A stretch of 64,000 bases of DNA, from positions 62,001 to 126,000 of the forward strand of contig NZ_JASHJC010000013.1 in assembly GCF_030733385.1 (NCBI RefSeq), in the 5' to 3' direction. Under the pieces are notes generated by a model. That model was given only the letters and a program-made list of their open reading frames with translations. It was not told where the DNA came from and ran no database searches. This document shows positions 2,178-38,576 of the stretch, one piece after another. The DNA comes from Roseovarius sp. MMSF_3359 (GTDB lineage Bacteria > Pseudomonadota > Alphaproteobacteria > Rhodobacterales > Rhodobacteraceae). Position 1 is the first letter of the stretch. Each line of letters opens with the position of its first letter. The position numbers were made by a program, and so were the translations under genes.

Positions 2178-2271
2178 GCCGGGACCGTCAAATCAAATGG
2201 TGCGGCGCTCAGGCCCCGGGGCTTGATGTCGGAAATACGCAGGGCAAGCTGCGAGATGGCAACACGCCGGT

Positions 2272-6168: not shown

Positions 6169-6276
6169 CAGGTCAAATTATCGCATTTCGCCATCCCGAA
6201 ACACATCTTTCGGCCTGATCGGCAAGCAATCTCAATTGGTTGCAGGGTGCGATCCCCCTACCTCATCCACTGGCAG

Positions 6277-6306
6277 TTGACGGATGGCGCGCGGCCACCC
6301 TATGGT
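6277..6306 (+). promoter_or_regulatory. Candidate GntR-gene promoter (leaderless)
   Basis: TTGACG (6277-6282), 18-nt spacer, TATGGT (6301-6306). The -10 ends only 6 nt before the ATG at 6313, so the predicted transcript would start at or next to the start codon. No clear Shine-Dalgarno sequence precedes the ATG, which agrees with leaderless translation. Confidence 0.4.
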
Positions 6307-6312
6307 ACAGGT

Positions 6313-7050: not shown

Positions 7051-7060
7051 GGGCAGGTTG

Positions 7061-21141: not shown

Positions 21142-21192
21142 TGGTCTGTGGTACCTGATCTTCGGTCACCCTTGTCACGAAAAGAGGATAGT

Positions 21193-22428
21193 ATGGCTGC
21201 GCCAATACGCGAAACCCAAGAGATAACGGCGGCGCTGGATGATCTTGCGCATTGGTTGATCCAGCAGGGGCTTGAAAACACGCCCGTCGAGGTCTGGCTT
21301 GAGGCGTGCTGTAACCGGTTGGTCACGGCCGGCATACCCTTGCAGCGCGTGAACGTTACCATGCAAGCGCACCACCCCGAGATCGGCGCTGTCGGTTTTC
21401 TCTGGCACCGCGGCGGCCACAATGAACGAGAGGACTTTGAGCGCACAACAGAAGTACAGGAAGATTTTCTGCGCAGCCCGATTTACTACCTGCTGAGCAA
21501 GAATACGGAAGAGATCCGGCAAAATCTGACAGTGCCGGACCCGGTATTGAATTTCCCGATCTTCGATGAGTTCCGTGCATATGGCGCCACGGAATACTTT
21601 GCCGCGAAGAGACTGTTTCTTCGTGACGACAGCACGGCCCTCGAAGACCCGCTGCAATCTGAAGAGGGCGTGGTCATCTCCCTGACGACAGATGCACCCG
21701 ATGGTTTCTCCGACGCCCATCTTGATGGACTACGCGAGATATTCGCACCCCTTTGCCTGACCCTCAAATCCGCGGCAAACCGGCAGATGGCCGAAGATAT
21801 CACAGCCGCCTACATGGGCCGCGATGCAAGCAGAAGGGTCCTGTCCGGTGATATCACCCGCGGATCGACACAAACGATCCCGGCGGTGATTTGGTATTTC
21901 GACTTGAAGGGGTTCACCAAACTTTCGGAAGCGATGCCCGGCACCGCGGTTATCGACATGTTGAATGACTACTTTGCCGTGGTCGTTGAGGTTGTTGAGG
22001 GTCACGGGGGCAATGTCCTGAAATTCATGGGTGATGGCCTGCTGGCAATCTTCGACATGGATCAGGTTGCCAACGCGCGGCGGGTCGCCATCGAGGCCGC
22101 TCTGCAGTTGCGCGATACGTTTATCTCCGTGAACGAACGGCGCGAGGCTGACGGATTGACGACCACAGGCTTCACCCTCGCTCTGCATGCGGGTGACGTT
22201 CTCTACGGGAATATCGGTGGCAAAACCCGGCTTGATTTCACGGTGATCGGCCCGGCGGTCAACACCACCTCGCGCATCCTGGGCATGTGCAGCGCCGTCG
22301 ATCAGGCCATCGTGATTTCCGCCAAGGTGGCCGCTCCGATGTTGGAGACCATTCCAAACCTGGTCTCACTCGGCCAATATCGCCTCCGCGGTGTGCGTGA
22401 CCGTCAGGAGCTTTTCACACTAGATTAG
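21193..22428 (+). CDS. Class III adenylate cyclase 1
   Basis: 411 aa. The N-terminal about 190 residues form an unassigned sensor-like domain shared in outline with the next gene. The C-terminal cyclase domain (about 215-405) has the metal-binding Asp in WYFDLKGFT, Lys and second Asp in KFMGDGLLAIF, Thr in LDFTVIG (with the Lys, the pair expected for adenine selection) and the NTTSR transition-state residues. All catalytic positions are present, so it should make cAMP from ATP. Soluble. Start at ATG 21193 with an AAAGAGG ribosome site. Confidence 0.9.
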   Translation: MAAPIRETQEITAALDDLAHWLIQQGLENTPVEVWLEACCNRLVTAGIPLQRVNVTMQAHHPEIGAVGFLWHRGGHNEREDFERTTEVQEDFLRSPIYYLLSKNTEEIRQNLTVPDPVLNFPIFDEFRAYGATEYFAAKRLFLRDDSTALEDPLQSEEGVVISLTTDAPDGFSDAHLDGLREIFAPLCLTLKSAANRQMAEDITAAYMGRDASRRVLSGDITRGSTQTIPAVIWYFDLKGFTKLSEAMPGTAVIDMLNDYFAVVVEVVEGHGGNVLKFMGDGLLAIFDMDQVANARRVAIEAALQLRDTFISVNERREADGLTTTGFTLALHAGDVLYGNIGGKTRLDFTVIGPAVNTTSRILGMCSAVDQAIVISAKVAAPMLETIPNLVSLGQYRLRGVRDRQELFTLD

Positions 22429-22507
22429 ACATGACCGCGAACCAATCGAAAGAATTCATCAGAACTAATCTCTATGCGTCGCTATCGTCAGGACCTATTT
22501 TAACGCC

Positions 22508-23680
22508 ATGGAACATTTGGCCAAACTCACCAACTGGATGATCAATGACGGCCGCCGCTCGGGCGATCCGGTCAAGGTCGTGTCGCATTTTTGCGCGTCG
22601 CTGATTGACGCGGGGGTGCCGCTCTGGCGCGCCAATATTGGCCAACGTTTCGCCAATCCCCTGCTCATTGCATGGGGTGTCGTCTGGAAACCTGAGGAAA
22701 CCGAAACCTATGACGTCACTCATGAAGTCACATTGACGGACAGCTACGTGGGCAGTTCTTTCGAATACATCCTGGAAAACAGAAAACCCCTGCACAAAAG
22801 CCTGCGCCAGCTTGACCCGAAAACCGACCACATCTCCTACCTGGAATTCGCCGAGCAGGGCGGCACGGATTATTACGCCACCCTGCTCTACTATGGCGAT
22901 GAATCGCTCCACGGCTGTACATTTGTGACGCAGGATCCGAACGGGTTCTTGCCGCAGCACCTAGAGATGATCGAAGCGGCATTGCCGGCCCTCTCCTGTG
23001 CGCTTGAACCCGTGACCATGCGCAAATCATCCAAAGGTCTCTTGCGCACCTATCTCGGGGATGGGCCGTCCGAGGCCGTTTGGAACGGCACGATCAAACG
23101 CGGGGAACGCACAACGATCGAGGCCGTCGTCATGTTCTGCGATCTGCGCGGCTTTACGGCAATGTCCGACAACGCGACCGAAGAACAGGTTTTTGAGGCG
23201 TTGAACGGGTATTTCGACCTGGTGGTGCAATCCGTCGAGGATCATGGCGGCGATGTGCTCAAATTCATGGGCGACGGCATCCTGTCGATTTTTCCGATTT
23301 CAGATCATGTTGGGCGGGCTGAACAGTGCAGAAACGCGGCGCGCGCCGCACAAGACTCGCTTGCCGGCCTTGATGCGCTCAATGTCAATCGAAAGGAGGC
23401 TGGTCTACCGCCTTTGGATTTCGGCGTCGGGATCAATGTTGGGCAGGTCAGCTATGGCAATATCGGCAGCCCAGGCAGGTTGGATTTCACGGTCCTTGGC
23501 GGTGCGGTGAATGTTGCCAGTCGGATTGAAGGGTTGACCAAGACAGCAGGCCACCAAATCTTGGCCACGTCCGCTGTCGCAGATGCGGCGCCTGAGTTGT
23601 TTTCGTCATGTGGACCCCACGCGATACGTGGCCTCGCTGATCCGATGGAATTGTTCACGCCTATTGACGTGTCTCATTAG
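22508..23680 (+). CDS. Class III adenylate cyclase 2
   Basis: 390 aa, same layout as the preceding cyclase: an N-terminal sensor-like region (about 1-185) and a C-terminal class III domain (about 200-385) with FCDLRGFT, KFMGDGILSIF, LDFTVLG and NVASR. Metal, purine-specifying and transition-state residues are all present. The N-terminus (MEHLAKLTNWMINDGRRSGDP, LIDAGVPLWRANI) aligns loosely with that of cyclase 1 (LAHWLIQQGLENTP, LVTAGIPLQRVNV), suggesting a tandem duplication with divergence of the input domain. Confidence 0.9.
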   Translation: MEHLAKLTNWMINDGRRSGDPVKVVSHFCASLIDAGVPLWRANIGQRFANPLLIAWGVVWKPEETETYDVTHEVTLTDSYVGSSFEYILENRKPLHKSLRQLDPKTDHISYLEFAEQGGTDYYATLLYYGDESLHGCTFVTQDPNGFLPQHLEMIEAALPALSCALEPVTMRKSSKGLLRTYLGDGPSEAVWNGTIKRGERTTIEAVVMFCDLRGFTAMSDNATEEQVFEALNGYFDLVVQSVEDHGGDVLKFMGDGILSIFPISDHVGRAEQCRNAARAAQDSLAGLDALNVNRKEAGLPPLDFGVGINVGQVSYGNIGSPGRLDFTVLGGAVNVASRIEGLTKTAGHQILATSAVADAAPELFSSCGPHAIRGLADPMELFTPIDVSH

Positions 23681-23767
23681 GCAGAGGCGGACGATCCAGG
23701 CAAACGTCAGGTGACCGGTCCCCGCGAAGACTCTAGGCTCAAGGCGCCATCATGGCTATGGTGCAGC

Positions 23768-24916
23768 ATGGACACTGCAAACACCGACGTATCATTTTAC
23801 AAGAGTTTAACCACCTATTCCGATTTCGCAGAATTGTCCGATTCCGGGAGTTATTCACCATTGCCAGATGATTGGTGGATCGGAACCTCGGATGTCAGGG
23901 GATCGACCAAAGCTGTCGAAGATGGACAGTACAAGACGGTCAACATGATCGGTGCCGCGGTCATTTCCGCCCAGATCAACACCCATCGTGGCGCGTCATT
24001 CCCGTATATTTTTGGCGGAGATGGCGCAAGTTTCGCCATCCCGCCCTCCTGGAAAGACCGTGCCAGCGATGCGTTGGCTGCGGTGCGGCTTTGGGCGCAT
24101 GAGGAATTCGGAATGGAGTTGCGCGTCGGCATGGTGCCCCTTTCCAGGGTTCGCGCAGCGGGATTTGATGTGAAGGTCGCCCGCTTCCAGGCCTCGGAAG
24201 GCGTCGACTATGCGATGTTTTTCGGAGGCGGGCTCAACTGGGCAGAAATGCAAATGAAAGCGGGTGAACACGCCGTTCCGGAGGCGGCCCCTGGGTCGAC
24301 ACCAGATCTCACGGGATTGTCCTGTCGGTGGAGCCATATGCCCAGCAAAAACGGTGTCATTCTGTCGATGATCGTCATGCCAAAAGACGATGTCGCCTGG
24401 CCGAGGTTCACCCAATTCGTGTCTCGTCTTCTTGATCGGATAAGCCACCTTGAGGCGAACGGCCATCCTGCGGGGAATGAGCCGCCCGGTATTTCATGGC
24501 CGCCCGCCGGGGCCACCCTTGAGGCGCACGCCCAGCGCGGGCAAGGGTCTTTGGGCAAAGCGCGTCGAAAGGCACTGTTCGAGAGTTTTTTGGCCTGGGT
24601 CCTCATCAAGACCGGCTTGAAAGTCGGAGGTTTCGATGCCCGCAGGTACCGCCGCATGGTCGGCGAAAATGCCGATTTTCGCAAGTTTGAAGACGGGCTG
24701 AAAATGACGCTGGATTGCGACAGCGCGACCGAAGCAGATTTGCGGTCTTTGCTCGAAGACGGCGCAAAAGACGGCATTATCCAGTTTGGCCTCCACACCC
24801 AGTCCGAGGCCATGCTGACCTGTATCGTCCCCTCTATCATGGAAGACAATCACGTCCATTTTGTCGATGGCGCCTCTGGTGGATACACGGCAGCCTCGCG
24901 GTTCTTGAAAACCTGA
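23768..24916 (+). CDS. DUF3095 family protein, cyclase-like
   Basis: About 382 aa, resembling DUF3095 proteins. The N-terminal part has GTSDVRGSTKAVEDGQYK and, about 40 residues on, FPYIFGGDGASFAIP. These align in spacing and key residues with the two metal-binding Asp motifs of class III cyclases (FxDIRGFT and MGDG), so the fold is probably cyclase-like, although the downstream N/R motif is not obvious. A C-terminal region (about 250-382) is specific to the family. The frame is open 19 codons upstream; MDTANTD at 23768 is used. It sits between cyclase 2 and the PDE-like gene. Confidence 0.8.
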   Translation: MDTANTDVSFYKSLTTYSDFAELSDSGSYSPLPDDWWIGTSDVRGSTKAVEDGQYKTVNMIGAAVISAQINTHRGASFPYIFGGDGASFAIPPSWKDRASDALAAVRLWAHEEFGMELRVGMVPLSRVRAAGFDVKVARFQASEGVDYAMFFGGGLNWAEMQMKAGEHAVPEAAPGSTPDLTGLSCRWSHMPSKNGVILSMIVMPKDDVAWPRFTQFVSRLLDRISHLEANGHPAGNEPPGISWPPAGATLEAHAQRGQGSLGKARRKALFESFLAWVLIKTGLKVGGFDARRYRRMVGENADFRKFEDGLKMTLDCDSATEADLRSLLEDGAKDGIIQFGLHTQSEAMLTCIVPSIMEDNHVHFVDGASGGYTAASRFLKT

Positions 24917-24947
24917 CGTAAGTATTTGTCTTGTAAGGTAGCCGTGG

Positions 24948-24962
24948 TCACATGTGTTCACA
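24948..24962. promoter_or_regulatory. Two TCACA half-sites, 10 bp apart
   Basis: TCACA at 24948-24952 and again at 24958-24962 (on the other strand two TGTGA half-sites in direct repeat), about 100 nt before the PDE-like gene. TGTGA is the CRP half-site, but the copies are direct rather than inverted, so CRP-type binding is only a possibility. Confidence 0.2.
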
Positions 24963-25063
24963 TCAAAGACGGTCGGAGCCTTTGAATGTCCGGTTTGGTT
25001 GATAAGGGGTCAACTTGTGCCTAAGCTGCCTTGGAGCGTTTCAGCGATGTTGGGAATGCAATA

Positions 25064-25915
25064 ATGTTCAACCCCGCCGCAGTTTTATCTGCTGCTTTTG
25101 GCGATCATCTTGCTGAAACTTACCTGCAGGTCTTTCCGGATCAGAAACCGCAATACGCCGATTTCTTGAACCATATGGCGCGCGAGGCGCTTGAACATAT
25201 CAGTAGGTCCGACGCCCCCTATCATAATTCAGAACATACGATGATGGTCACGCTGGTGGGCGAGCAGATCATCCGGGGGAAGCACAAAACGGACACCGTG
25301 GAGCCAGAGGATTGGGTGCATTACATCGTGGCACTTCTGCTCCATGACATCGGCTTTGCGCGGGGCGTTTGTGAGGGCGACATGGCCAAGGCGGTCGTTA
25401 TCAACGATAAGGGAGAGCGTTTTTGCCCACCCCGCGGCGCCACCGATGCCTCCCTGGGACCCTACCATGTTGACCGGGGCAAGATCTATGCCCGCAACCG
25501 CTTTGCGGCGTGTGAAGTCATTAACCCGGAACGTATCGCGAGAGCCATCGAATACACGCGCTTTCCCGTGCCGGATGACCCGGCTTATGCCAGTTTGGAC
25601 AGCGAACCCGCGCTGGTACGGGCCGCGGACCTGATTGGCCAAATTGCCGATCCTTACTATCTGCGCAAGGTAAGCGGACTATACAACGAGTTCCTGGAAA
25701 CCGGCTTTGCAGAGACACTTGGATGCCAGTCTCCCATGGATTTGGTAGAGCTTTTCCCAAGCTTTTTCAGCGAGCAAGTAGAGCCACTCATTGGTCCGGC
25801 CCTTGAGCATTTAAGGCAAACCCCGGACGGCAAAGAAGTGATTGCAGAGCTCTACAATCGTGTGTCCGAAGCCTCTGGGCGCGACAACAAACTCGGACCG
25901 TTCGCGGGTCCTTAG
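25064..25915 (+). CDS. HD-domain phosphohydrolase resembling class I cyclic-nucleotide phosphodiesterase
   Basis: 283 aa (an in-frame TTG 11 codons upstream is an alternative start). The metal-binding pattern YHNSEHTMMV, then LLLHDIGFARG about 35 residues later, matches the HN-x2-H and HD elements of class I PDEs (catalytic His in YHN). Later Asp-rich sequence (VRAADLIGQIADP) supplies another metal ligand position. With adenylate cyclases on one side and a cyclic-nucleotide-binding protein on the other, cAMP hydrolysis is the most likely role (inference). Confidence 0.75.
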   Translation: MFNPAAVLSAAFGDHLAETYLQVFPDQKPQYADFLNHMAREALEHISRSDAPYHNSEHTMMVTLVGEQIIRGKHKTDTVEPEDWVHYIVALLLHDIGFARGVCEGDMAKAVVINDKGERFCPPRGATDASLGPYHVDRGKIYARNRFAACEVINPERIARAIEYTRFPVPDDPAYASLDSEPALVRAADLIGQIADPYYLRKVSGLYNEFLETGFAETLGCQSPMDLVELFPSFFSEQVEPLIGPALEHLRQTPDGKEVIAELYNRVSEASGRDNKLGPFAGP

Positions 25916-25967
25916 AACTCGCGGCTTGGTGTCGCCGATGAACAATGTAACCTTGGTATGTTGAAGG

Positions 25968-26591
25968 CTAAGCCTCCTGCGTATGCGCAGCATTCGCCAC
26001 AAGCCGCTTGGTGACGAGGCGCATCACCGACATCGCAAACTTGGGGTCTTCATACTGCAACCGCGCAAAGCGTTTCTCGTTGACCTCGTAAACAACCGTA
26101 TCCTCCACGCACCGCACCGTCGCCATGCGCACCGCACTGCTGTTGAAGAACGCCATTTCACCAAAGATATTCCCCGCGGGCACAGTCACATCCTGCCCTT
26201 CAATTTCAACAAGGCCCTCGGCCAGATAATAGAGGCTGTCAACCGGATCGCCCTTTTCGAAAAGGACGTCGCCCGCCTGGATGTCGCGTCGTTTGCCATA
26301 GGCCATGGCGGCGGAGAAATCAGCCTCCGAGTCGTCCGTCATATGCGTCACCAACCTGCGCAGCGCGATGAGTTCATAGAGGCGATAGGCGTTGACGCAA
26401 AGCAAGACGACTTCAATCGCCAGAAGCGGCCAGATCTGAAACAGGGCGCTATAGATGATGAAGCAGACCGACGACAAAATCACCAGGACCCGCAGCCAGA
26501 TCATCGAATTCATCGACAGTGTTGCCAACTTGAACAGAACAGCGAGCCAGCCAACGGCCTCAATCATGTAGTTTGTGGTGATAGATTCCAT
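25968..26591 (-). CDS. Membrane protein with C-terminal cyclic-nucleotide-binding domain
   Basis: 207 aa. Three probable transmembrane helices (about 9-72) are followed by a cNMP-binding beta-barrel (about 95-200): IQAGDVLFEKGDPVDSLYYL, then the phosphate-binding cassette GNIFGEMAFFNSSAVRMATV with the Glu and Arg that hold the cyclic phosphate and ribose. There is no DNA-binding domain. The layout of three helices then a cNMP domain resembles Popeye-type proteins. It is convergent with the PDE-like gene and upstream of the MATE gene on the same strand, so it is a likely membrane-located cAMP receptor. Confidence 0.85.
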   Translation of the reverse strand: MESITTNYMIEAVGWLAVLFKLATLSMNSMIWLRVLVILSSVCFIIYSALFQIWPLLAIEVVLLCVNAYRLYELIALRRLVTHMTDDSEADFSAAMAYGKRRDIQAGDVLFEKGDPVDSLYYLAEGLVEIEGQDVTVPAGNIFGEMAFFNSSAVRMATVRCVEDTVVYEVNEKRFARLQYEDPKFAMSVMRLVTKRLVANAAHTQEA

Positions 26592-26708
26592 TGGCTTGCT
26601 CTCCTAATGCGCCTGTCGCGCCAATATACAGGTCAGGGTTTTGTTGTCGCGTCTATGCGGACATGTACGGGTTTAGTTAATGTTTGGCATTTGGTCTCAC
26701 GGTCAGGA

Positions 26709-28127
26709 TTATTTGTCTTCCAAATGCTTGTGCAAGGTATGGGCAATGAGGCTGCCATGACCAAAAAGCGCGCTGTGGCTGCGATGGCGCATGTTTTCCT
26801 GCGGCGGGTTCTTTATCAACCGCCAGCCCAGCCATAACGCGACGGATGCGAAGATGACGCTGCCAAGCGCCTGCCCGATCAAAACCCCCTGCGCCCCCAT
26901 CAGGATCCCGCCGACGACGACAAACGGCCAGGTGCCCAGGGTGTGCTGTCCCCAACTCAACCACGTCGAATAAGACGGGCGGCCCAGCGTGTTGAATGAC
27001 GCGCTTGCTACAAATACCGAGCCGCTAAAAAACGCGGACAGCGCCACCGGGAAGCAATAGAGGTAAATCAGCTCCCTCGTCAGGTTCTGGGCACTGAAGA
27101 GATCGGCAATCGGGCCACGGAGGGCAAACAATATCAGGGTGATGCACAGTACATAGATCGCCACAAAAGTGATGGCATCGAGATACGCGCGTCTGACCCG
27201 ATCCACATGACCGGCCCCGAAATTCTGCCCGATGATCGGCCCGATGGCCCCCGATAGCGCCCAAATGACCGAAAAGGCAACGGGCGTCATCCGGCCGATC
27301 ACAGCCATCCCGGCCACCGCCTCTGGTCCGAATTTTGACATTTCGCGGGTCACGATCGCCGTGCCGATGGGTGTGGCAACATTGGCCAAAACGGCGCGGC
27401 TGGCGAAATGGGTCACCGTCTGGAGGTCGCGCCAAAGCAGGCGCAGGCTTGGGCGAACGAACGCATTGTGCTTGCGCAAGGCCGGATAAAGGGCAAGCCC
27501 GAGCGTCACGAACCGCGCCGCCACCGTGGCCCAGGCAGCCCCTGGCAAACCCATTCCCAGGGCAAAGATGAAAATTGGGTCAAGCACCCCATTGGTCAGC
27601 GCCCCGAAGAGAGATGGATACATCGCCAGCCGATGCTCACCGTAGCACCGCAAAGACGCGACAGTCACCATGGACAGACCCGATACCCAAGTGAAGGGCA
27701 CGACAATCCAGAGATAGGTTGCCGCCAGCTCCGCCACCTGTCCCGTGGCCCCGAGAAGGCCCACGAAGAACTCGACATTGATCAATAGAATCAAAGGAAT
27801 GGCGATTCCGGTCAGCATCACGAGCATCGCCGTACTTGTGGCGTATTCGCGCGCCTCCAGCTCATCATCCTCGCCGATGGATCGCGACACCAAAACGCCT
27901 GCCGCGACCGACAGGCCGATATTGATCGCGCTGGTAAAGAACATGAGGGCGCTGGCATAACCCGCCGCAGCGGCCATTTCCTCGTAGCCCAGCATCGAGA
28001 TGAATATCAGGTCAATCAGATCGACCGCATAGATCGCCATCAGGCCGATGCTGGCCGTAAATGAAGAGACCGAAACGTGACGCATGATACTGCCGGTCGT
28101 GTACTTCGCGGTTTTCCCGGTCGTCAT
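26709..28127 (-). CDS. MATE-family efflux transporter
   Basis: About 472 aa with twelve membrane segments and MATE patterns (GVLDPIFIFALGMGLPGAAWATVAAR; PIIGQNFGAGHVDRVRRA). It should export a cationic or amphipathic compound with H+ or Na+. ATG at 28127 is chosen; a GTG 24 codons earlier adds a hydrophilic tail. It lies 117 nt upstream of the cyclic-nucleotide-binding protein gene on the same strand, a possible regulatory pairing. Confidence 0.9.
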   Translation of the reverse strand: MTTGKTAKYTTGSIMRHVSVSSFTASIGLMAIYAVDLIDLIFISMLGYEEMAAAAGYASALMFFTSAINIGLSVAAGVLVSRSIGEDDELEAREYATSTAMLVMLTGIAIPLILLINVEFFVGLLGATGQVAELAATYLWIVVPFTWVSGLSMVTVASLRCYGEHRLAMYPSLFGALTNGVLDPIFIFALGMGLPGAAWATVAARFVTLGLALYPALRKHNAFVRPSLRLLWRDLQTVTHFASRAVLANVATPIGTAIVTREMSKFGPEAVAGMAVIGRMTPVAFSVIWALSGAIGPIIGQNFGAGHVDRVRRAYLDAITFVAIYVLCITLILFALRGPIADLFSAQNLTRELIYLYCFPVALSAFFSGSVFVASASFNTLGRPSYSTWLSWGQHTLGTWPFVVVGGILMGAQGVLIGQALGSVIFASVALWLGWRLIKNPPQENMRHRSHSALFGHGSLIAHTLHKHLEDK

Positions 28128-28627
28128 CTCTGGTCTTTCGTAATTTGAACCGTCATCGGCAATAAAACTCTCTTGGGGCGCATAATTTCCCCGCTGCACA
28201 CAACCAGTTTACAAAGATTAATCAAATGCGGGTAGCCTCGAGTTTCCGAGGCCCCAAAGCCGCTCGACCTCTTCCATTAGCTCAGAGAAATCCTTCGCGG
28301 TGAAGGGATGATCAAGTCAATACCGGCTCAACGCCGGCATTCGCTCTGCAGTGTAGCACCGTGGCCCCGCCTCTGAGCTAAAATTCTCTGGGGGCTTGGC
28401 GGATCAGGGGTTTCGTCATGGACACGCCCGACCTACCCTCCATTTGCGCTTTCGAAATGCCAATTAGATCCAACAAGGGCAAAGATGCTCCAGATGCGAC
28501 ATCTGTTGTTTGCGACCCTTGGATAAATACTTTGAGGAACGCTTCCCCGCGTTTATCATGCAAAAGGGCGTTCCCGTCGGGCAATGCCGGTTGAACAGTG
28601 CTATTGACGTCGAAGAGAGATCCAAAG
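28128..28627. other. Intergenic region between divergent MATE and ferredoxin-cyclase genes
   Basis: About 500 nt. A small hairpin (GCCTCG, 6-nt loop, CGAGGC; 28235-28252) is present without a T-run. A minus-strand frame of 85 codons (28378-28635) overlaps the next gene's start and lacks good coding character. No clear promoter was identified. Confidence 0.4.
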
Positions 28628-30322
28628 TTGGACACTCCTGACCAGCCGACCTCCGACTCGGCGATAAGGCGGACCTTTTATGTGCCGCAGCTACGCATCG
28701 CGTCGGGGCTGATCCTTTTCACCTTTGCCATCACCCACTTCATCAATCACGCTCTGGGCTTGGTCTCGCTTGATACCATGCAGGCGGGTCAGGACATCAG
28801 GGTGTGGGTGACGCAAAGCGCGGCGGGAACGGCGCTGCTGATTACGGCCGCGACAGTTCACTTCGTGCTGGGCATCGCGAAATTCATCGGAACGCGCACC
28901 TGGCGACTCGGAAGACGGGATTTCATTCAATTGATCTTCGGGCTTCTTATCCCCCTATTCCTGATCCGTCATGTGCTCGGCACCCGCGGCGTTCAAGAGA
29001 TGTTTGGCATCGAGGCCGACTATACCTATGCCATGTGGGCCATGTGGCCGAATGAGGCGCTGTCGCAGGCCTTGCTGATGACGCTTGTCTGGGTTCACGG
29101 CTGTATCGGCATGCATCACTGGCTGATCGTCCGAGCTTGGTACCGCCGGTCACTCTGGCTCTGGTACGGGTTGGCGGTGGGCATACCCGCATTGGCCTAT
29201 GCAGGCTATGTCGCCGCAGGCCGGGTCAGTGCGTTGCAGTCAAGCTATTCCAACCCGTTCTCGGCAGAGCAATATGCGACGTTCGTGTCGACGCTTCAGG
29301 CGACCAACACAGTTTACTACGCCATCCTCGCGGGCGCCTTGGGGATATGGCTGCTGCTGTTGACGAGGCAGCGTTTTTCCGGACGCGTTATCGTCACTTA
29401 CGCCAATGGCCCCATCATCCCGGCATCCCGAGGGCTTTCAGTGCTGGACATCAGCCGGATCAATCGTGTCCCACACGCCTCGGTCTGCGGCGGGCGGGCA
29501 CGATGCTCCACTTGCCGCGTTCGGGTGATCGAGGGCCACGAGATGTTGCCTCCGCCAACCGAGATCGAAACCACGGTGCTAAAGCGGGTCGCAGCGCCGG
29601 CAAATGTCCGGCTGGCCTGTCAATTGCGCCCGACCGCCAATCTGACCATCTCGACGCTGATGCCGGGCAACATAGACGCTACGCGCGGGGTCGCGATTGA
29701 TCGCTACCATTGGGGCGTCGAACGGGACGCAACGATCCTGTTCTGCGATCTGCGCGGATTTACGAAGATGTCCGAGGGCAAGCTATCCTACGATGTGGTT
29801 TTTCTCCTGAACCAGTTCCTCGGTCGGATGGCCGAGGCCATTCAGGATTCCGGCGGGTATGTCGACAAGTTCATGGGCGACGGGATCATGGCGATCTTCG
29901 GGATGGAGACGTCGATTCAAGACAGTGCGGTTCGCGCGATCAAGGCTGCACGGGCGATGGGCGGCGTTCTCGACGGACTCAATCAAAGCCTGCAAGAGGA
30001 ACTTCCGGAGCCGCTTCAGATCGGGATCGGGTTGAATACCGGACCCGTGGTTCTGGGCCGCATCGGGGCGGGTCACAGAACCGACGCCGCGGCGCGTATC
30101 ACGGCACTTGGGGAAACGGTGAACACGGCAAGCCGCCTGGAGGGGCTAACAAAATCGATGGAAGTACAGATCATCGTCTCAAACACAACGATTGCAGCGT
30201 CAGGTCTGACCCCCGGCGACAAGATGGCGCGCCAGAGTGTCGATGTCAGAGGGCTCAGCCAGCCGATCATCGTCTACACCGTCAAGCGGGCAACCGACCT
30301 GCCCTCTTCGGAAAGCCCCTGA
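28628..30322 (+). CDS. Membrane-ferredoxin-adenylate cyclase fusion
   Basis: About 564 aa from a TTG at 28628 (GAAGAGAGA upstream); GTG at 28598 is an alternative. Residues below are counted from that GTG. Region 30-255 has five or six membrane helices with several intramembrane His (47, 51, 88, 125, 167, 173, 174), resembling a haem-b succinate dehydrogenase anchor. Region 262-355 is a [2Fe-2S] ferredoxin domain with Cys297, 303, 306 and 341. Region 372-565 is a class III cyclase with FCDLRGFT, KFMGDGIMAIF and NTASR, catalytically complete. It probably couples membrane redox state or electron flow to cAMP output; related ferredoxin-cyclases are known in alphaproteobacteria. Confidence 0.9.
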   Translation: MDTPDQPTSDSAIRRTFYVPQLRIASGLILFTFAITHFINHALGLVSLDTMQAGQDIRVWVTQSAAGTALLITAATVHFVLGIAKFIGTRTWRLGRRDFIQLIFGLLIPLFLIRHVLGTRGVQEMFGIEADYTYAMWAMWPNEALSQALLMTLVWVHGCIGMHHWLIVRAWYRRSLWLWYGLAVGIPALAYAGYVAAGRVSALQSSYSNPFSAEQYATFVSTLQATNTVYYAILAGALGIWLLLLTRQRFSGRVIVTYANGPIIPASRGLSVLDISRINRVPHASVCGGRARCSTCRVRVIEGHEMLPPPTEIETTVLKRVAAPANVRLACQLRPTANLTISTLMPGNIDATRGVAIDRYHWGVERDATILFCDLRGFTKMSEGKLSYDVVFLLNQFLGRMAEAIQDSGGYVDKFMGDGIMAIFGMETSIQDSAVRAIKAARAMGGVLDGLNQSLQEELPEPLQIGIGLNTGPVVLGRIGAGHRTDAAARITALGETVNTASRLEGLTKSMEVQIIVSNTTIAASGLTPGDKMARQSVDVRGLSQPIIVYTVKRATDLPSSESP

Positions 30323-30852: not shown

Positions 30853-31629
30853 ATGAGGACGTCACCAAAGAGACTTTTTGAACTAGTTACAAATATTTCG
30901 GGCGTCCTTCGCGATCTGGAACAGATGGGAATCCGTCTGGAGATTGGCGATGATTTCGCCAAGTACCGCACGTTGAGAAGCCAACTGCCAGATCGCGGGC
31001 CGATCTATCCGATGTTCGATGTCGCGAGTTCGTATATTGACGAGGGCAACGGGTTCTGGATCTGCGGGTTCGACCCCAGCGGCGAGCTGGTCCACACGCA
31101 GGCAGTACGCCTTCTCGATCTCGAGGGCGTTTCACTGGCCCAGCACCTGAATACCCACCGCCACAAGTACATCACCCCTGATTCAACCCCGGACCCAGAT
31201 CTCACGTTTTATTCAGGCCCCCAAGCACTCCAGACGATCACGGGCAAAGTCTGCTACCAGGGCGAATTCTGGCTTCGTGCCAGCGGTCTCGGCGGTCCGC
31301 GCAGCCACGGTGCGACGTCGCTGTTGTCACGCGTCCTGCTGGAGATCATGGTCGGCGCCTGGAACCCGGCCTTCGTGTTTGCGCTTGTCCCCCAAAGGCT
31401 TGCCGCCAAGGGCGCACATCTCCGCTATGGCTACAGCCATTGCGAACCCGGTCGCTGGCTGGGGCAGGACCAACAGGTAACGGAAGAAGACCATTTGATC
31501 TGGATGGGCGCCAAGGACATGGCAAATCTGCTCGCGCGGACACCACAGGGTGTTAGACGTCCGAACAGTGTTTCCAAGCTCCGGGTCGCCGGGCCCTCCA
31601 CCAAGACAAAGCACCATCTGCAAGCGTGA
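30853..31629 (+). CDS. Unknown GNAT-like protein, copy 2 of a paralogous pair
   Basis: 258 aa, collinear with the product of 14116-14904. Long identical blocks cover most of the central 200 residues (DRGPIYPMFDVASSYID, HLNTHRHKYITPD, LRYGYSHCEPGRWLG), while the N-terminal 30 and C-terminal 35 residues diverge. The GLGGPRSHGATSLLSRVLLE segment resembles a GNAT cofactor loop (inference). No MFS gene follows here, unlike copy 1. ATG at 30853 with a GAGAGGGCGAG ribosome site. Confidence 0.7.
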   Translation: MRTSPKRLFELVTNISGVLRDLEQMGIRLEIGDDFAKYRTLRSQLPDRGPIYPMFDVASSYIDEGNGFWICGFDPSGELVHTQAVRLLDLEGVSLAQHLNTHRHKYITPDSTPDPDLTFYSGPQALQTITGKVCYQGEFWLRASGLGGPRSHGATSLLSRVLLEIMVGAWNPAFVFALVPQRLAAKGAHLRYGYSHCEPGRWLGQDQQVTEEDHLIWMGAKDMANLLARTPQGVRRPNSVSKLRVAGPSTKTKHHLQA

Positions 31630-31908: not shown

Positions 31909-33048
31909 ATGGCCGACAAAATTCTCGAAAAAGTAAACGATATCGTAAACGATGGCGCGAGAAATCTTGTTGACCGGCGGGTCATTTTCGAGCTTGCGGT
32001 ACTTGGTGTTCTGGCAAAAGAACATGTGCTGATGATCGGTCCTCCGGGGACGGGCAAATCGGCCGCGGTACGTGCCGTCGCCCAACGGTTTTCAGGCCGC
32101 CATTTTGAGTATTTGCTGGGCCGGTTTACGGAGCCAGCGGAATTGTTTGGTGCGCTCAGCATCGAGGCCCTTCGAGACGGGCGCGTCGAGGTGGTGACCG
32201 AAGGCATGCTGCCGGAGGCCAATGTTGCGTTTCTCGACGAGATCTTTCTGGGCTCGACCGCAATTCTGAACACGCTTCTCGGGCTGTTGAACGAGCGCGT
32301 CTACCGTCGCGGCGCACAACAGATTGACGTGCCGCTCTGGACTTGTTTCGCGGCCTCCAATGCCATGCCGGATGATCCCATGTTGGCGGCGTTTGCCGAC
32401 CGGTTTCTGATGACCACCTTTGTTGATCCGGTCGGCCTCGACAACGTGGCCAGCCTTCTTCGGTCAGGCTGGTCGCTGACCCAGGCCGTGGCACCCTCGG
32501 ACCCTGGCCAGGTCTTGACCGAAGCTGAAGTGCGGGACCTGGTTCAGCGCGTGCACGAGGTGGATCTTGACCAGATCATTGATCCCTTTTCGCAGATAGT
32601 CGGCAAACTGTCTGTCAGAGGCATCAGTTTTTCTGATCGCCGGATTGTTCGAGGTCAGAAGCTGATCGCCGCGGCTGCCGTTCTGGCAGGCCGACAACAG
32701 GCAACGCTGGCCGATTTGTGGCCGGTCGTCTTCATGGTGCAGGACCGCAGTTTGCAGGAGCAGGCCAAAGAGATTTTGGCGGAAGAGCTTCAACTGGCCG
32801 AAAACCCGGTTCTGGACCAGGCCGCCAAGACAGCCGCCTATGGCCCTGCCGCTTATGCCGCTGATCTTGCCAAATCCGCGCAGGAGCATCTCGACAACAA
32901 ACCGCAGTTGCGCGACGACCCTTCCTTCGAGCCCTGGTGTATCCGTGCCGAGAGCATGATTGCCCGCATTGATGCCGGGTTCGCAGAAGAAATGCGCCCC
33001 GAAACGCTTGCTTTGGCACGGTCGGCCCTTGTCGCAGCAATCCGCTAG
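31909..33048 (+). CDS. MoxR-type AAA+ ATPase of a ternary system
   Basis: 379 aa. Walker A GPPGTGKS (44-51), Walker B VAFLDEIF (about 105-112), sensor 1 region FAASNAMPDDP and the arginine-rich ADRF follow the MoxR/RavA plan, with a helical C-terminal part (about 220-379). First gene of a tight four-gene set; the next start is 9 nt downstream. In MoxR systems the ATPase works with a vWA protein on a protein target, probably remodelling the beta-propeller effector encoded downstream. Confidence 0.9.
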   Translation: MADKILEKVNDIVNDGARNLVDRRVIFELAVLGVLAKEHVLMIGPPGTGKSAAVRAVAQRFSGRHFEYLLGRFTEPAELFGALSIEALRDGRVEVVTEGMLPEANVAFLDEIFLGSTAILNTLLGLLNERVYRRGAQQIDVPLWTCFAASNAMPDDPMLAAFADRFLMTTFVDPVGLDNVASLLRSGWSLTQAVAPSDPGQVLTEAEVRDLVQRVHEVDLDQIIDPFSQIVGKLSVRGISFSDRRIVRGQKLIAAAAVLAGRQQATLADLWPVVFMVQDRSLQEQAKEILAEELQLAENPVLDQAAKTAAYGPAAYAADLAKSAQEHLDNKPQLRDDPSFEPWCIRAESMIARIDAGFAEEMRPETLALARSALVAAIR

Positions 33049-33057
33049 GATCGTGTC

Positions 33058-33483
33058 ATGGATCTGGCGGTCAAACTTGTCGATGATAGGGTACCCGCCA
33101 GGCCCTGCGGGTTGATCGCCGATATCGGGTTTCTGACCAAACTCGCACCGCGTGTCGCCGCTTTGGACGGTTTTCTGCTGGCCCGCCAAAACGCGAAATT
33201 CATCCTCTATCATCCCCATGCAACCGATCCTGATCTGCCATGGTTGGGGGACGATATCATTTACCTGAACCGGTATTCCCACGGCCTCTATGGTCCCGCC
33301 GGATCGCGCCTGAACATTCCCGCTCATCTGCTTGCGCAATTCCGGGTCGACATCACCTCTCGCAAGGGGTTCAAGGGTGACCTGCTGATGATGTCGGGTG
33401 ATGAGTTGAAGGTGGTGGACCTGTCACCTGCAATGCCCGTGCACCGCGTCGATCTGGATGCCACGATGGGGCAGGTAAATTGA
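33058..33483 (+). CDS. Small accessory protein of the MoxR-vWA-propeller system
   Basis: 141 aa, alpha/beta, no signal peptide or membrane helix. Visible features: GLIADIGFLTKLAPRVAALDG, YHPHATDPDLPWLGDDI and LLMMSGDELKVVDLSP. Likely one of the bpX-type domains defined for MoxR-vWA-beta-propeller ternary systems, judged by position and size; I cannot assign the subtype. Its stop overlaps the TTG start of the next gene, showing tight coupling. Confidence 0.7.
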   Translation: MDLAVKLVDDRVPARPCGLIADIGFLTKLAPRVAALDGFLLARQNAKFILYHPHATDPDLPWLGDDIIYLNRYSHGLYGPAGSRLNIPAHLLAQFRVDITSRKGFKGDLLMMSGDELKVVDLSPAMPVHRVDLDATMGQVN

Positions 33484-35354
33484 CCATCGCAGAGACCGGC
33501 AAAGCCGCAAACGCCATTGAACAGACCGCCCATCTCTTTCGGCAGATGGAAAAGCCCCTGAGAACGGTTTTGGAGGGGCTGCTGAGGGATTTTGATGGCT
33601 TTTCCGACCTTGTGACCCATCACTCGGAGCCCGGGTTGGGGCAATTCAGTGGCTATGAAGGCATCGAAAACCGCGGCGAGGTCGGTGATATACTGGCGTC
33701 TGAATGGGCAATCCACGATCTGGATCCGGTCGAATTCATGCGCCGTGTCGCGATGCAGGAAACCCTGTACCGCCGCAGGATACACGAGACCGAAACCCAG
33801 GGTCGTGCCATCTGCCTGATTGTTGATAGTGGCGCATGGATGCTGGGTCATAACCGGCTTCTGGGGCTTGGGGCGGTCTTCTGGCTTGCGGCGCAGTCCG
33901 CCAGGCAGGGCGTTGACTTCTGCTGGTGTCATACGGCCGATCCGGGCACCTGGCATCAAGGCCTCGAGCGCAGGCAGATCGAAACGTATCTGAGCACCGT
34001 TTCGCAGCATGAACTCGACCAGGACATGCTCGAAGAGATCGTCACCGGTCTACAGCCAACCGAGAAGGTAACGCGCGAATACTGGATCGTTGGGCCAACG
34101 CGCTTGGAGCATCAGGTCAACCTGCTCAATCTTCGCGCGGCGCTTCTCGCCGATTTGCCAAAGAACCACGAAAGTACCAATCAGGTCGCCAGTGCGCTCA
34201 GGCTCTGGACAAAGGGCACTCTCAGGCGCCTTGCCCAGATGCACTTTCCCGAGGACGGTTTATGCATCGGCGCCTTGCGCAGACCCTTCGCGCTGGATCT
34301 TTCGCAGTCGAACGTGACAAGGGATTATCTGGTCGACAATTGGGCGCCCCGGCACTGGCTTGAGCTGGACAATGGCAAGGTTGCAGTTCGGTGGCGAAAC
34401 GGCCTGCTTCTGACAAACCACTTTTCCGCCGACAAGGCATCGGACCATTGGTTTCCCTTGCCGGAAGACGCACAGATTTCTGCGGTTTTCTGCGAAGGGT
34501 CCACCTTCCATCTGCTGTGGCAGTCTGCCGAGTACCAACCGCATCAACTGAAATACGCCGTGGTTAACCTGACCGGCAACGACCACGAACCCAAGGTCCA
34601 GGAGGTCCCGGTTCATGCAAAGCTGGACGATTTCGCATTCGGTGCAACCGCATTGCCGTGGCAAGACCTGGGGTATGACAATCGCGAAGATGGCGCGTTA
34701 GCGGTTATTGATCGTCTGGGACAAAGCAGAACCATCAACCTGAAAACCGGTCTGGTGCGGCATGATGCGGAGCAGCCAACGCTCCTTGCGCGCGACGGCA
34801 GTAGCCAGCTATGGGCGGTTCCGATGGGCGACCCCCGACTGGGCGGTGAGATCTTGCAGTCAACAGCCGGTCATCCCTATCGGAACCTGACGATAAGGCT
34901 GGAGGATCCAGTGAATTGGACCTCGAACTTGCGCGACATTCGATTGGCAATCAGCGATATCGCCGTGCTGATGACTGAAGACGGCACACGTTATGTCATC
35001 CGCGACCGGCATGAAGAGATCGAGATGATCTGGCCTGACGGCCTGGTGCCACTTCAGGCGCTCGGCCCCAAGAAAGGTTTCGGCTATCATCCCTCCTCGG
35101 GCACCATCATCCAGTATCGCTGGCACGAGGGGGCGAAGCCGCAATTGCACCCCAAGAACCACAAAGGCCACAAGACCGGACTGTCGCATCTGCGCTCTTC
35201 GCGCATGGGGCGGTTTGCCTATGGCGTGGCGCTGGACGATGGGCAACCTCAGGAACTTGTGAGGTTGCGGCTTGGTGGCAAGGGGCCCGGGTTCGAGAGT
35301 ATTTCCGTCGTGGACCTGATCGCGGAAGCGAGGACCGTATGGCTCAGCGATTGA
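33480..35354 (+). CDS. Degenerate vWA-like protein of the ternary system
   Basis: 624 aa, starting at a TTG that overlaps the previous stop. Region about 105-215 looks like a von Willebrand A fold (GRAICLIVDSGAWMLG, then LLGLGAVFWLAAQ), but the MIDAS DxSxS is Asp116-x-Gly118-x-Trp120, so metal binding is probably lost or altered. Region about 260-620 is beta-rich with repeated WxLP, LAVIDRLGQ and TEDGTRYVI patterns, probably a beta-propeller. Ends overlapping the next gene by 16 nt. Confidence 0.75.
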   Translation: MTIAETGKAANAIEQTAHLFRQMEKPLRTVLEGLLRDFDGFSDLVTHHSEPGLGQFSGYEGIENRGEVGDILASEWAIHDLDPVEFMRRVAMQETLYRRRIHETETQGRAICLIVDSGAWMLGHNRLLGLGAVFWLAAQSARQGVDFCWCHTADPGTWHQGLERRQIETYLSTVSQHELDQDMLEEIVTGLQPTEKVTREYWIVGPTRLEHQVNLLNLRAALLADLPKNHESTNQVASALRLWTKGTLRRLAQMHFPEDGLCIGALRRPFALDLSQSNVTRDYLVDNWAPRHWLELDNGKVAVRWRNGLLLTNHFSADKASDHWFPLPEDAQISAVFCEGSTFHLLWQSAEYQPHQLKYAVVNLTGNDHEPKVQEVPVHAKLDDFAFGATALPWQDLGYDNREDGALAVIDRLGQSRTINLKTGLVRHDAEQPTLLARDGSSQLWAVPMGDPRLGGEILQSTAGHPYRNLTIRLEDPVNWTSNLRDIRLAISDIAVLMTEDGTRYVIRDRHEEIEMIWPDGLVPLQALGPKKGFGYHPSSGTIIQYRWHEGAKPQLHPKNHKGHKTGLSHLRSSRMGRFAYGVALDDGQPQELVRLRLGGKGPGFESISVVDLIAEARTVWLSD

Positions 35355-38338
35355 CCGCGATACGGCACCGCCGGAAGAAGCCCTTGCCGCCGCGCGAATG
35401 GGTTTGGCTATCCGTGGGCCAGTATGACGGCATTCTTCTGCCGGATGCCACCGGTCCAACGCAGGCGACGCCGCTCCTGCCATTTCTGAAAGGCATTACG
35501 GCGCTTTTTGAGACCCCTGTCGGGTTGATGGCGCTGTTTGAAGCGCCGATCGAACTCGACCCGGCGCAACTGGGATCAGCATTGCCGCTGCGCCGGAACG
35601 CGGCCGGCAGCTTGTCCAGTTACGCAGATGCCCCGCAAGCGGTGGCTGATACTCTCGACTGCTTTCTGGCAGGACAGCGTCACGTCATCGCGTCCAAGGA
35701 ATGGGTTTCGATTGATCCCCTTGTCTTCTGGAACCTGGACGCCATCGGCACCGCCCGCTGTGACAGCCCGCCCTTGGCGAAGCGGCCCAAGATGGAACCG
35801 GCAAGCGCTGCCAAGCCCGACCCACGCATAAAAGCCACGATCGAGCGCACATCCGAATTGCAGATGGAAAGCGCCCGGATTTCCCAAACGAGTATTCGAA
35901 AGAGCGCAGTGATCGCCGACGGGGCGCGCCGCACGGTGAGATTTCTGTTCAAAACCTGCTTTACTATTGGCCTCATCCTTTTCGGGCTGGTCATGGTTCT
36001 AGGCCTGGCGAAAACGATCCTGACCGCTCCAAATCCGCAAGACGGCAGTTGGCTTTGGGCGGTGTTGCTGTTTCTGGCGTTGGCTTATGTTCTGCTCAGG
36101 ATTTTCAGTGGCCCCGGCGGATCGGTGACCCGAATTCTTCGCGCCGGGCAACGGGGCGGGACACGGGACGGCCGGGCCGCGCGATCGGCCACGGCACCTG
36201 CCCAACGGCCCAAATCACCAGGACTTCTCGACAAGTTTCACGGCTGGCTTTTGTGGAACACGCCCGCGGGTGACAGCTTGCGGCGTGGCTTGGAGGGCCG
36301 CTTGAAGGAGATGGAAAAGCTGTTGAAGGCCGGGCACATAGATGAGGCGTTGAAGCGCGCCCTTTCCGCCGCGGCCAGCGAGCGCAAGAAGCCGCCTTCA
36401 ATGGCGTCACGCCTGCCTGAAATCCGCTCAAACCTGGGGCTCAACTTCGGCCAAAAGGTCGATGGGCCGTCGATCCCGATCGGCATGAGCTCCTTTCAGG
36501 AAATGCGGCAAATGTACCTGGGTCTCGCCCGCGAATACGAAGCTAAGGGTGACCACGGGCGCGCCGCCTTTATCTATGACGAATTGTTGGGGGACTACGC
36601 CGCCGCCCTCCGGGTTCTGGAACATGCCAAGCGATACGAAGACGCGGCCAAGCTCGCGATGGCCCGCAACCAGAGTGGCGGTGACATCGTGTGCCTGTGG
36701 TACCTGGCAGGAAAGCGTGATGTCGCCATCGCGCTCGCCGAACGGTACAGCTGCTTTGACGTCCTGGTCCGTGCTGCGGAGAACAAGAACATCCAGGCGG
36801 GACAGTTCATTCGCAAGATCTGGGCCGAACGTCTGGTCCAGACCGGGGACATCGCGCAGGCGCTTCTGGTGTCCGACGATGTGCCGGGCCTCGAAGAGAT
36901 CCGCCTAAGATGGCTGGCGCAGGCAATCGGGCAGGGTGAACTTGAAGACCCGGCCATTTTCCACCGCGCGTTGCTGGTCTTGCCCTGGCGGGCCGAGGTG
37001 GCTGACGGGGCCGCGATCGCCGATCCCGGGACCGTTGGCGCGGCGCTCGAAAGCAAGGTTTCGACGGTGCTCAATCCCTCGACCGACCCCGATGAACGGA
37101 CCTCGCTCTTGGATCACCTTCTGGACGGAACCAGGAAAAAGGGTTGGCGGAGCGAGGTGTTGCAAAAGCCAAACATCAGCCGCCTCTGCGACAACATCAT
37201 CCGGCAGACCATCACCGATGCGGTCCCGCTGACAAAGAAATCTCTCGAAGGTTACAGCGCCATTGCCCGGGCCGCCGGTCTGGGCCCCTTGGCGGCGGAC
37301 CTGCGTCGCATCAAGCGTGCCCAACCGACCGAAACCGCACCGGGGAACGCATTGCTGTTGCCGCCTGTATCATTGGCACAGCCCAAGTGGTGCCATCTGG
37401 CCTGTTTGCCGCGCGGGCGGGTCTTGGTCGGCGATCCATCCGGGACGGTGCGCATTCTGGCGCCTTCCGGCAAGATCGAATGGGCGGATCAGGTCACGGA
37501 CCTGGCAGGGTTTGTGCGCATCCGAACCGGGCGTTTCGTTATTCTGGTTCTCGGCCATGAGGCGCATGCCCGCCGTATCCTCATGCTCGACACGTTGCGC
37601 CACACTTACAGAAAGCTCGGCAACCTGCCATTGGAAGCGTGGCACAGCGAAAGCAATGAACACATCTGGATGGTCAAATCCGGTCGCCGTATCCAGGCAC
37701 TGTCGGTGGTTGCCTTGTTCAACGAAGAGGCTCCTGAATTTCGGGAAAGCTGGGGCGTTACGATCAACGAGGATGTTGTGGTTCTAGGTTTTGTCCGGAA
37801 CGACAGCGTGATCGGTTGGTACTTTCAACGCCGCGAGGGTGCGGCCGGGTTCGGATTGATCGAGTATTGGACCGCACCGACAAGAACGCTCAGCTTCTCC
37901 ACCTATTTTCTTGTTCCCCCGGGCGAAAACGAGCGCGGAAAAACGAACATCTACACCGAACCGACAGCCCTCAGAGGTACAATTTTTTCGTATTCCGGCA
38001 ACACCGCAGGCAAGGCGATCCATACGAACCTCAGAGCGTATACATGGGATAATGAAAGAGCCTTGAAGTCCGACCATTTTCGGTTTCTGCAGACGCTTTC
38101 CAACCCTGCTCCGATCCGCTCCTACGCGATGGGCCCACTGGTGATCGAAAGCTCGGGCGCGTTGATCCCGTCATTGCGCCTGCTCCGTCAGGGAACGGAA
38201 ACATTTGTTCGTCTGGAACGAAGCTCCTGGCGTGCATCGGATGCGGCGCCCAACGGCAGGACCTGGGCGATCATTGATAACGAACATCGCGTGATCCTGA
38301 TTGAACCGGGGAAAGCCACCAGCCGGATTGTTTCTTAG
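35339..38338 (+). CDS. Membrane-anchored beta-propeller protein of the ternary system
   Basis: 999 aa. An N-terminal domain (about 1-145; WVWLSVGQYDGILLPDATGP) is probably a bpX-type module. Two membrane helices follow (about 204-225 and 237-256). A charged linker leads into TPR-like helices (about 320-640; YLGLAREYEAKGDHGRAAFIYDELLGDY). The C-terminal third (about 690-999) is beta-rich (CLPRGRVLVGDPSGTVRILAPSGKIEWADQV), a probable beta-propeller. It would place the complex at the membrane. GCGAGGA ribosome site before the ATG. Confidence 0.75.
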   Translation: MAQRLTAIRHRRKKPLPPREWVWLSVGQYDGILLPDATGPTQATPLLPFLKGITALFETPVGLMALFEAPIELDPAQLGSALPLRRNAAGSLSSYADAPQAVADTLDCFLAGQRHVIASKEWVSIDPLVFWNLDAIGTARCDSPPLAKRPKMEPASAAKPDPRIKATIERTSELQMESARISQTSIRKSAVIADGARRTVRFLFKTCFTIGLILFGLVMVLGLAKTILTAPNPQDGSWLWAVLLFLALAYVLLRIFSGPGGSVTRILRAGQRGGTRDGRAARSATAPAQRPKSPGLLDKFHGWLLWNTPAGDSLRRGLEGRLKEMEKLLKAGHIDEALKRALSAAASERKKPPSMASRLPEIRSNLGLNFGQKVDGPSIPIGMSSFQEMRQMYLGLAREYEAKGDHGRAAFIYDELLGDYAAALRVLEHAKRYEDAAKLAMARNQSGGDIVCLWYLAGKRDVAIALAERYSCFDVLVRAAENKNIQAGQFIRKIWAERLVQTGDIAQALLVSDDVPGLEEIRLRWLAQAIGQGELEDPAIFHRALLVLPWRAEVADGAAIADPGTVGAALESKVSTVLNPSTDPDERTSLLDHLLDGTRKKGWRSEVLQKPNISRLCDNIIRQTITDAVPLTKKSLEGYSAIARAAGLGPLAADLRRIKRAQPTETAPGNALLLPPVSLAQPKWCHLACLPRGRVLVGDPSGTVRILAPSGKIEWADQVTDLAGFVRIRTGRFVILVLGHEAHARRILMLDTLRHTYRKLGNLPLEAWHSESNEHIWMVKSGRRIQALSVVALFNEEAPEFRESWGVTINEDVVVLGFVRNDSVIGWYFQRREGAAGFGLIEYWTAPTRTLSFSTYFLVPPGENERGKTNIYTEPTALRGTIFSYSGNTAGKAIHTNLRAYTWDNERALKSDHFRFLQTLSNPAPIRSYAMGPLVIESSGALIPSLRLLRQGTETFVRLERSSWRASDAAPNGRTWAIIDNEHRVILIEPGKATSRIVS

Positions 38339-38576
38339 ACGATCTTCAACCTGAATGTGCCAGATCCGGCTCGGTGCAAACGTGGTTGTCAACGACGGAT
38401 GCGATACCCCAGGTCGAAGGGCAAAGTTCTCCGTATCTTTCGCCATGGGGCAGCTCAGCACGATCTGACGGGCGAAGTGGGCGGCGGCCTCCACCAACCC
38501 AGCACAACCAACATTTGAGACGCACGAAAACGCCGCGTTTCGACCCGGCACTCTTTTCCGTCGTCCGCCGGTCTCC

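Follow-up and report, generated by a model that had tools for sequence, protein, structure and literature searches.

Within a stretch of 64,000 nucleotides (nt) from Roseovarius sp. MMSF_3359 (contig NZ_JASHJC010000013.1, positions 62,001 to 126,000; hereafter the window), four collinear open reading frames (ORFs) on the + strand (31909-38338, 6.4 kb) form a cassette that, by sequence comparison, is a divergent bpX5/bpX6-type member of the MoxR-vWA-beta-propeller ternary systems. These systems were defined, and a role in biological conflict was proposed for them, by Kaur et al. 2020 (PMC7159879, subsystem 4). The four genes encode, in order, a MoxR-clade AAA+ ATPase (bpMoxR, 379 amino acids, aa), a small bpX5-like protein (141 aa), a protein at the vWA position with a C-terminal beta-propeller (624 aa) and a bpX6-type third component (999 aa). 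On balance, we favour the view that they encode one membrane-tethered complex of the divergent bpX5/bpX6 type, acting as an ATP-driven conflict switch. As far as we have seen, the beta-propeller ternary system is a comparative-genomics proposal of 2020, and the literature matches listed in our search, which left subscription journals mostly outside, included no experiments on it.

Membership in the ternary systems, as claimed in a sequence-only reading of this DNA, is supported by the bpMoxR score, by gene order and architecture, and by the homology of genes 2-4 to cassettes carrying Pfam bpX5 and bpX6 (canonical cassettes). The top Pfam match of gene 1 (31909..33048; this and all following window features are on the + strand) was PF20030, bpMoxR (E 3.7e-73, 245.4 bits against a cut-off of 27), which agrees with its assignment as a MoxR AAA+ ATPase. 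The bpMoxR model is unselective when used alone: it gave matches in 12 of 14 control genomes, among them E. coli, and at four more places in the window's own genome, all at 65 bits or less and two of them over the cut-off. The weight of gene 1 for membership therefore rests on its score and on its 42-47% identity to the MoxRs of the three canonical cassettes; across all seven other complete cassettes the identity is 42-56%. The Walker A motif placed by the MoxR alignment (GPPGTGKS, residues 44-51, 32038..32061) differs from the GXXXTAKS often seen according to PMC7159879: all five alphaproteobacterial rows, window included, have TGKS, whereas TAKS was found in 4/4 rows from the class of genome G576. 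Walker B (FLDE, residues 108-111, 32230..32241) was invariant in 9/9 MoxR rows. Nineteen phage records with a MoxR-like ORF were dropped, as they look like generic MoxR proteins.

A bpX6 search of the phylum returned 2 of 299 genomes, one of them G576, which together with G542, G1061 and G776 belongs to one class of the same phylum, other than the window's. The G576 locus (L013) shows the same order, with matches to bpMoxR (302.9 bits) and bpX5 (176.7 bits), a 615-aa protein with no significant Pfam match, and bpX6 (203.4 bits). BLASTP of the window proteins against this locus gave 43% identity for MoxR, 28% over 85 aa for gene 2 (E 0.018), 27% over 154 aa for gene 3 (E 2e-8) and 29% over 401 aa for gene 4 (E 7e-18), E-values being relative to the ORFs of this locus only. 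Profile-profile comparison (hhalign) of the alphaproteobacterial with the canonical sets reached probabilities of 93.4% (gene 2), 99.8% (gene 3) and 100% (gene 4), and two cross-pairings gave 1.6% and 0.1%. Direct searches matched none of genes 2-4 to a Pfam family at E 1, to an NCBIfam equivalog above cut-off or to PADLOC at E 0.1. The bpX profile check suggested for the cassette thus succeeded on gene 1 and failed on genes 2-4, for which the link comes from profile-profile comparison; taking the lack of a bpX match as refutation would have misled, because profile-profile comparison reveals homology that the direct profiles miss.

For gene 2 (33058..33483), the comparison with bpX5 proteins had an E-value of 2.6e-7. 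A 19-row alignment scored 46.8, whereas none of 60 column shuffles exceeded 22.4; probabilities stayed at or below 5.89% for the shuffles and 0.36% for 24 unrelated pieces. By this homology the 141-aa protein is bpX5-like. The bpX5 Pfam model matched 0/19 of the gene-2 relatives at E 0.01 in our local scan, with which the precomputed bpX5 label (PF19921) of one relative, P0039, disagrees.

Gene 3 (33480..35354, TTG start) is related through its N-terminal half to the same-position proteins of canonical cassettes (hhalign 99.83%; 30 shuffles at most 1.2%). Its predicted structure had a mean predicted local distance difference test (pLDDT) of 71.0 and a predicted template modelling score (pTM) of 0.57. 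Residues ~106-270 (33795..34289) are predicted to form a vWA-like alpha/beta region, from the order of strands and helices in a part of the model with pLDDT ~40-80. The label "degenerate vWA" is thus plausible by this order and by homology to canonical vWA-position proteins, while gene 3 had no match to a vWA profile in Pfam or to a solved vWA chain in a Protein Data Bank (PDB) sequence search, and Pfam likewise found no vWA domain in the corresponding proteins of L013 and of the Yoonia maricola locus (L008). The consensus of the metal ion-dependent adhesion site (MIDAS) is DxSxS. In 13 rows from two alignments (10 and 3 rows), the MIDAS-like motif of gene 3, D116-S117-G118 (33825..33833), is degenerate: the aspartate is retained in 13/13 rows and neither serine of the consensus in any. 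The part described in the earlier reading as beta-rich turned out to be a predicted beta-propeller, C-terminal to the vWA-like region (residues 285-616, 34332..35327). The gene 3 profile found nothing useful among solved structures in the PDB, and the VIA-align fold lists for the gene 3 and gene 4 models were filled by propeller matches.

Profile-profile comparison shows gene 4 (35339..38338) to share homology with bpX6 proteins in its N-domain, its repeats and its propeller (full protein, E 2.9e-43). Its N-terminal alpha+beta domain, the bpX6 equivalent by predicted structure and hhalign, spans residues 20-132 (35396..35734), and residues 1-140 matched the bpX6 region at 95.65% (E 1.1e-8). 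A helical-repeat array defined in the same way (residues 296-657, 36224..37309) matched the canonical repeat region at 99.88%, and the predicted propeller (residues 663-999, 37325..38335) matched its canonical counterpart at 88.29%; for each of the three regions, 30 shuffles gave at most 1.2%. Between N-domain and repeats, hydropathy, positive flanks and a short loop indicate a hairpin of two transmembrane segments (residues 206-224 and 239-257, 35954..36109), both of which occur in all seven alphaproteobacterial gene-4 proteins examined, whereas of the three canonical third components one has one clear segment and two have none. The earlier description of gene 4 as membrane-anchored, with helical repeats and a propeller, is therefore borne out at the level of prediction. 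The pTM of the model was 0.40, and among solved structures the profile matched weakly, with residues 692-716, designed propellers (E 0.0011) and BamB (E 0.79). The Pfam bpX6 model matches 4/15 rows of the gene-4 alignment (A10), the window's protein not among them.

That the cassette could be an unrelated mix of common folds (MoxR, propellers, repeats) merely resembling ternary systems is very improbable. Such a mix would fit the lack of direct Pfam bpX5/bpX6 matches in genes 2-4 and the gene-3 propeller, whose sequence cannot be aligned to that of its canonical counterpart (0.24%, not above its shuffles or two crossed propeller pairs, 0.29% and 0.46%). It is largely contradicted by the shuffle controls of the gene-2 and domain-wise profile-profile comparisons: all four proteins show homology position by position, backed for genes 2-4 by cross-pair or shuffle controls, and the gene order is identical.

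The features shared with the systems of Kaur et al., as far as these are set out in PMC7159879, are a bpMoxR ATPase, a vWA-position protein that ends in a propeller and carries a degenerate MIDAS-like motif, a third component that combines an N-terminal domain with a membrane segment, repeats and a propeller, and a small adjoining gene. Differences are that window genes 2-4 fall outside the Pfam bpX5/bpX6 models, and that the small bpX5-like gene is present in all eight complete cassettes. These are the window, L008, Paenihalocynthiibacter styelae (L009), an uncultured Jannaschia (L010), Methylobacterium bullatum plasmid 1 (L057), L013, L014 and L055, with gene starts in L010 and L014 picked by analogy. 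All eight have MoxR, bpX5-like, vWA-position and bpX6-type genes with gaps of -29 to +9 nt, so that the tight four-gene set claimed for the window recurs complete and in the same order in 7/9 further loci and is no chance arrangement. The other two, L056 and L060, are cut by contig ends and were excluded from the count: L056 ends shortly past its bpX5 gene, and L060 has at the bpX5 position an ORF for which BLAST showed no similarity to either P0002 or P0023 at E 0.01. Because L055 and L056 came from a search with bpX5 itself, they give no independent evidence for its constancy.

The 6ND4 structure is presumably a 90S pre-ribosome entry with propellers. It was the Foldseek match of the third gene in RGP_32 of Pseudomonas syringae clade 2b-a, where ravA, bpX5, a 6ND4-like gene and bpX6 are reported to be unique to the clade and to share one region of genome plasticity (PMC9677677). 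These are the same four gene kinds in the same sequence; the P. syringae genes are annotated bpX5/bpX6 directly, unlike those of the window, and the likeness is one of published description, not of compared sequence.

The four ORFs lie where the earlier reading placed them, and both of its overlaps were verified: the TTG start of gene 3 overlaps the TGA stop of gene 2 by 4 nt (TTGA, 33480..33483), and the start of gene 4 overlaps the end of gene 3 by 16 nt (35339..35354). Both are also present in L008, L009 and L057. The overlapping starts suggest translational coupling; the fixed stoichiometry previously read from them does not follow. A promoter scan gave 0 sites against 2.3 expected, and a terminator scan 6 against 9.3 expected, neither of them informative. 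Additionally, proteins 96% identical to genes 2, 3 and 4 (P0031, P0005 and P0011) exist in another assembly, where the gene-3 and gene-4 copies are listed at 401 and 904 aa and may be broken, cut or misassembled.

The four-gene set looks co-inherited, because the five alphaproteobacterial loci branch identically in the MoxR, gene-3 and gene-4 trees. One node of the gene 2 tree was poorly supported (0.361), and the MoxR tree places the three canonical loci in a different grouping from the other gene trees. Conservation was compared for all genes on the same five alphaproteobacterial loci as mean pairwise identity, which was 60.6% for MoxR and 31.2% for gene 2. Values for gene 3 were 38.7% (residues 1-105), 33.6% (106-270) and 23.1% (propeller), and for gene 4 31.8% (N-domain), 36.4% (repeats) and 28.3% (propeller). 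The gene-3 propeller was again the lowest globular part when the three canonical loci were compared (19.6%), and an earlier comparison on unequal row sets ranked it likewise. Comparable variability is confined to linker stretches of gene 4, whose globular N-domain does not stand out. In these alignments the least conserved globular part is therefore the gene-3 propeller, not the bpX6 N-domain, whereas the variable, invader-reading module proposed for the family is the N-terminal region of the third component (Kaur et al. 2020, PMC7159879). This could mean that in the present branch the gene-3 propeller is the invader-reading module: a fast-evolving sensor of a membrane switch that is driven by ATP and has no enzymatic effector. 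We regard this specific version as unlikely. The variability of the propeller is a lead, because rapid divergence can also reflect weak constraint.

The distribution of the cassette is patchy. Counting the window's own genome where it matched, gene 4 was found in 1/84 genomes of the genus (the window's own) and its profile in 2/385 genomes of the class, the gene 3 profile in 2/394 genomes of the family, and bpX5 in 5/369 genomes of the G576 class, four of them over the cut-off. Two plasmid records had a gene 4 match. Conservation in all relatives, which together with a housekeeping phenotype had been named as a refuting condition, is thereby excluded. This bears on the possibility that the genes encode a specialised membrane-associated assembly or stress chaperone that serves a complex of the host membrane and plays no part in conflict, in the manner of RavA-ViaA or NorQ-NorD. 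We consider this rather improbable, although several observations speak for it: at E 1e-10 the MoxR profile matches only RavA chains among solved structures (E 2.8e-54), the partner protein is predicted to be anchored by a hairpin, GC content is ordinary, and no mobile gene was found among the scanned window ORFs. RavA-ViaA of E. coli is itself a MoxR AAA+ protein with a vWA partner that acts at the inner membrane (PMC9489729). However, a general function is contradicted because gene 4 is absent from 83 of the 84 genus genomes, and two relatives have mobile or defence neighbours. Furthermore, gene 1 scored 148.6 of the 681 bits needed for full-length RavA (NCBIfam equivalog), the match stopping at RavA residue 277 of 498, so that the C-terminal part of RavA is unmatched. 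To our knowledge, bpX5/bpX6 partners are not part of RavA-ViaA.

The neighbourhood of the relatives was examined as the earlier reading had proposed, and two of them have mobile or defence genes near the cassette. In P. styelae (L009), TniB, TniQ and an exonuclease gene precede the cassette, as does a divergent COR-TIR gene with a PADLOC bSEFIR match; the TniB-TniQ-exonuclease and COR-TIR region (2742-8042) is possibly a Tn7-like element with defence cargo. In M. bullatum plasmid 1 (L057), a relaxase-domain gene (2089-3327) lies ~2 kb upstream of MoxR. In L013, a pentapeptide-repeat gene (4501-5865) follows the bpX6 gene by 65 nt on the same strand and is a possible extra effector. A VMAP type has also been reported near CRISPR loci (PMC10910872). 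The adjoining TniB/TniQ and nearby relaxase, the apparent co-inheritance of the set and the membrane hairpin would also fit a module that acts in mobile elements like an addiction system or stabilises cargo: the complex, normally kept off, would damage the membrane once the element is lost or disturbed, and defence would be a side effect. This we judge quite unlikely, since Pfam and PADLOC scans of the four proteins recognised no toxin-antitoxin family, four genes of 6.4 kb are a costly design, and no element was seen next to the cassette in the window or, on visual inspection, in L008.

Returning to the conflict switch, several results weigh against it. No transposase, integrase or relaxase was found in the 36 non-cassette window ORFs scanned (30 with Pfam, 6 with PADLOC only), GC and third-position GC (GC3) of the four genes gave no sign of foreign origin, no mobile gene was recognised by eye, without a profile scan, in the ORF starts around the Yoonia cassette, and PLSDB types the M. 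bullatum plasmid record as non-mobilizable. One scan of viral contigs found no gene 4 relative. In PADLOC-DB 2.0.0 no system model fits the four proteins, with only weak matches to the ATP-binding part of MoxR (best E 1.9e-4), and no enzymatic effector was recognised in them. In addition, metal-dependent peptide capture by gene 3 is unlikely because its MIDAS-like motif is broken. On the other side stand the homology to canonical cassettes, the constant order, the apparent co-inheritance, the patchiness and the context in relatives, which taken together are best explained by a conflict system. A conflict role, as proposed by Kaur et al. (PMC7159879), is likely.

What the analysis shows directly is the gene set and its order, the homologies, the predicted folds, the hydrophobic hairpin and the patchy distribution; we infer complex formation, an ATP switch, topology, trigger, output and defence role as follows. 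The bpX6-type protein would sit in the inner membrane through its short hairpin, with both soluble ends cytoplasmic, as the positive hairpin flanks suggest, and its helical repeats and propeller could serve as a scaffold to which the vWA-position protein binds, perhaps through contact between the two propellers. The MoxR ring may grip the N-terminal half of the vWA-position protein and, by ATP hydrolysis, twist it so that the complex passes from an "off" to an "on" state, with the bpX5-like protein as a putative constant adaptor or brake. This ATP step is suggested by analogy with the proposal of Kaur et al. and with NorQ-NorD, where a MoxR ring works on a vWA protein and NorQ acts on the NorD linker (PMC13036017). 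NorQ-NorD differs in that it serves metal insertion into nitric oxide reductase, and the abstract of that paper names no propeller partners. Most likely, the trigger would be some component of an invader inside the cell, sensed by the fast-changing gene-3 propeller, with the membrane as the site of output.

To the left of the cassette, the window shares synteny with G687 as far as 30312, and to the right with G692 starting at 38576; both genomes lack gene 4. The flank matches thus come from different genomes, and no single clean empty site was found; repeats around the cassette were only short, imperfect pairs. Just upstream of MoxR lies a 258-aa ORF without family (30853-31629), with relatives in 23 rhizobial plasmid records that are conjugative or mobilizable; the two records inspected have a LuxR-family gene and transposase genes near the relative. 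Three class III adenylate/guanylate cyclase-domain ORFs (at 21148, 22508 and 28598, the last also with a 2Fe-2S domain) and a DUF3095 gene lie within ~9 kb (21148-30322) near the cassette. The sole PADLOC match among scanned window ORFs, PycC for 28598-30322, reflects a generic cyclase domain. Farther downstream are a topoisomerase IB gene (57072-58031) and a radical SAM gene followed by a DUF4130-uracil-DNA-glycosylase fusion (59442-62122).

For the family, these results mean that an alphaproteobacterial branch escapes the standard bpX5/bpX6 profiles and will also be overlooked in counts based on them. The compact 6.4-kb cassette is a handy test object, and the alignments indicate which part most likely carries specificity.

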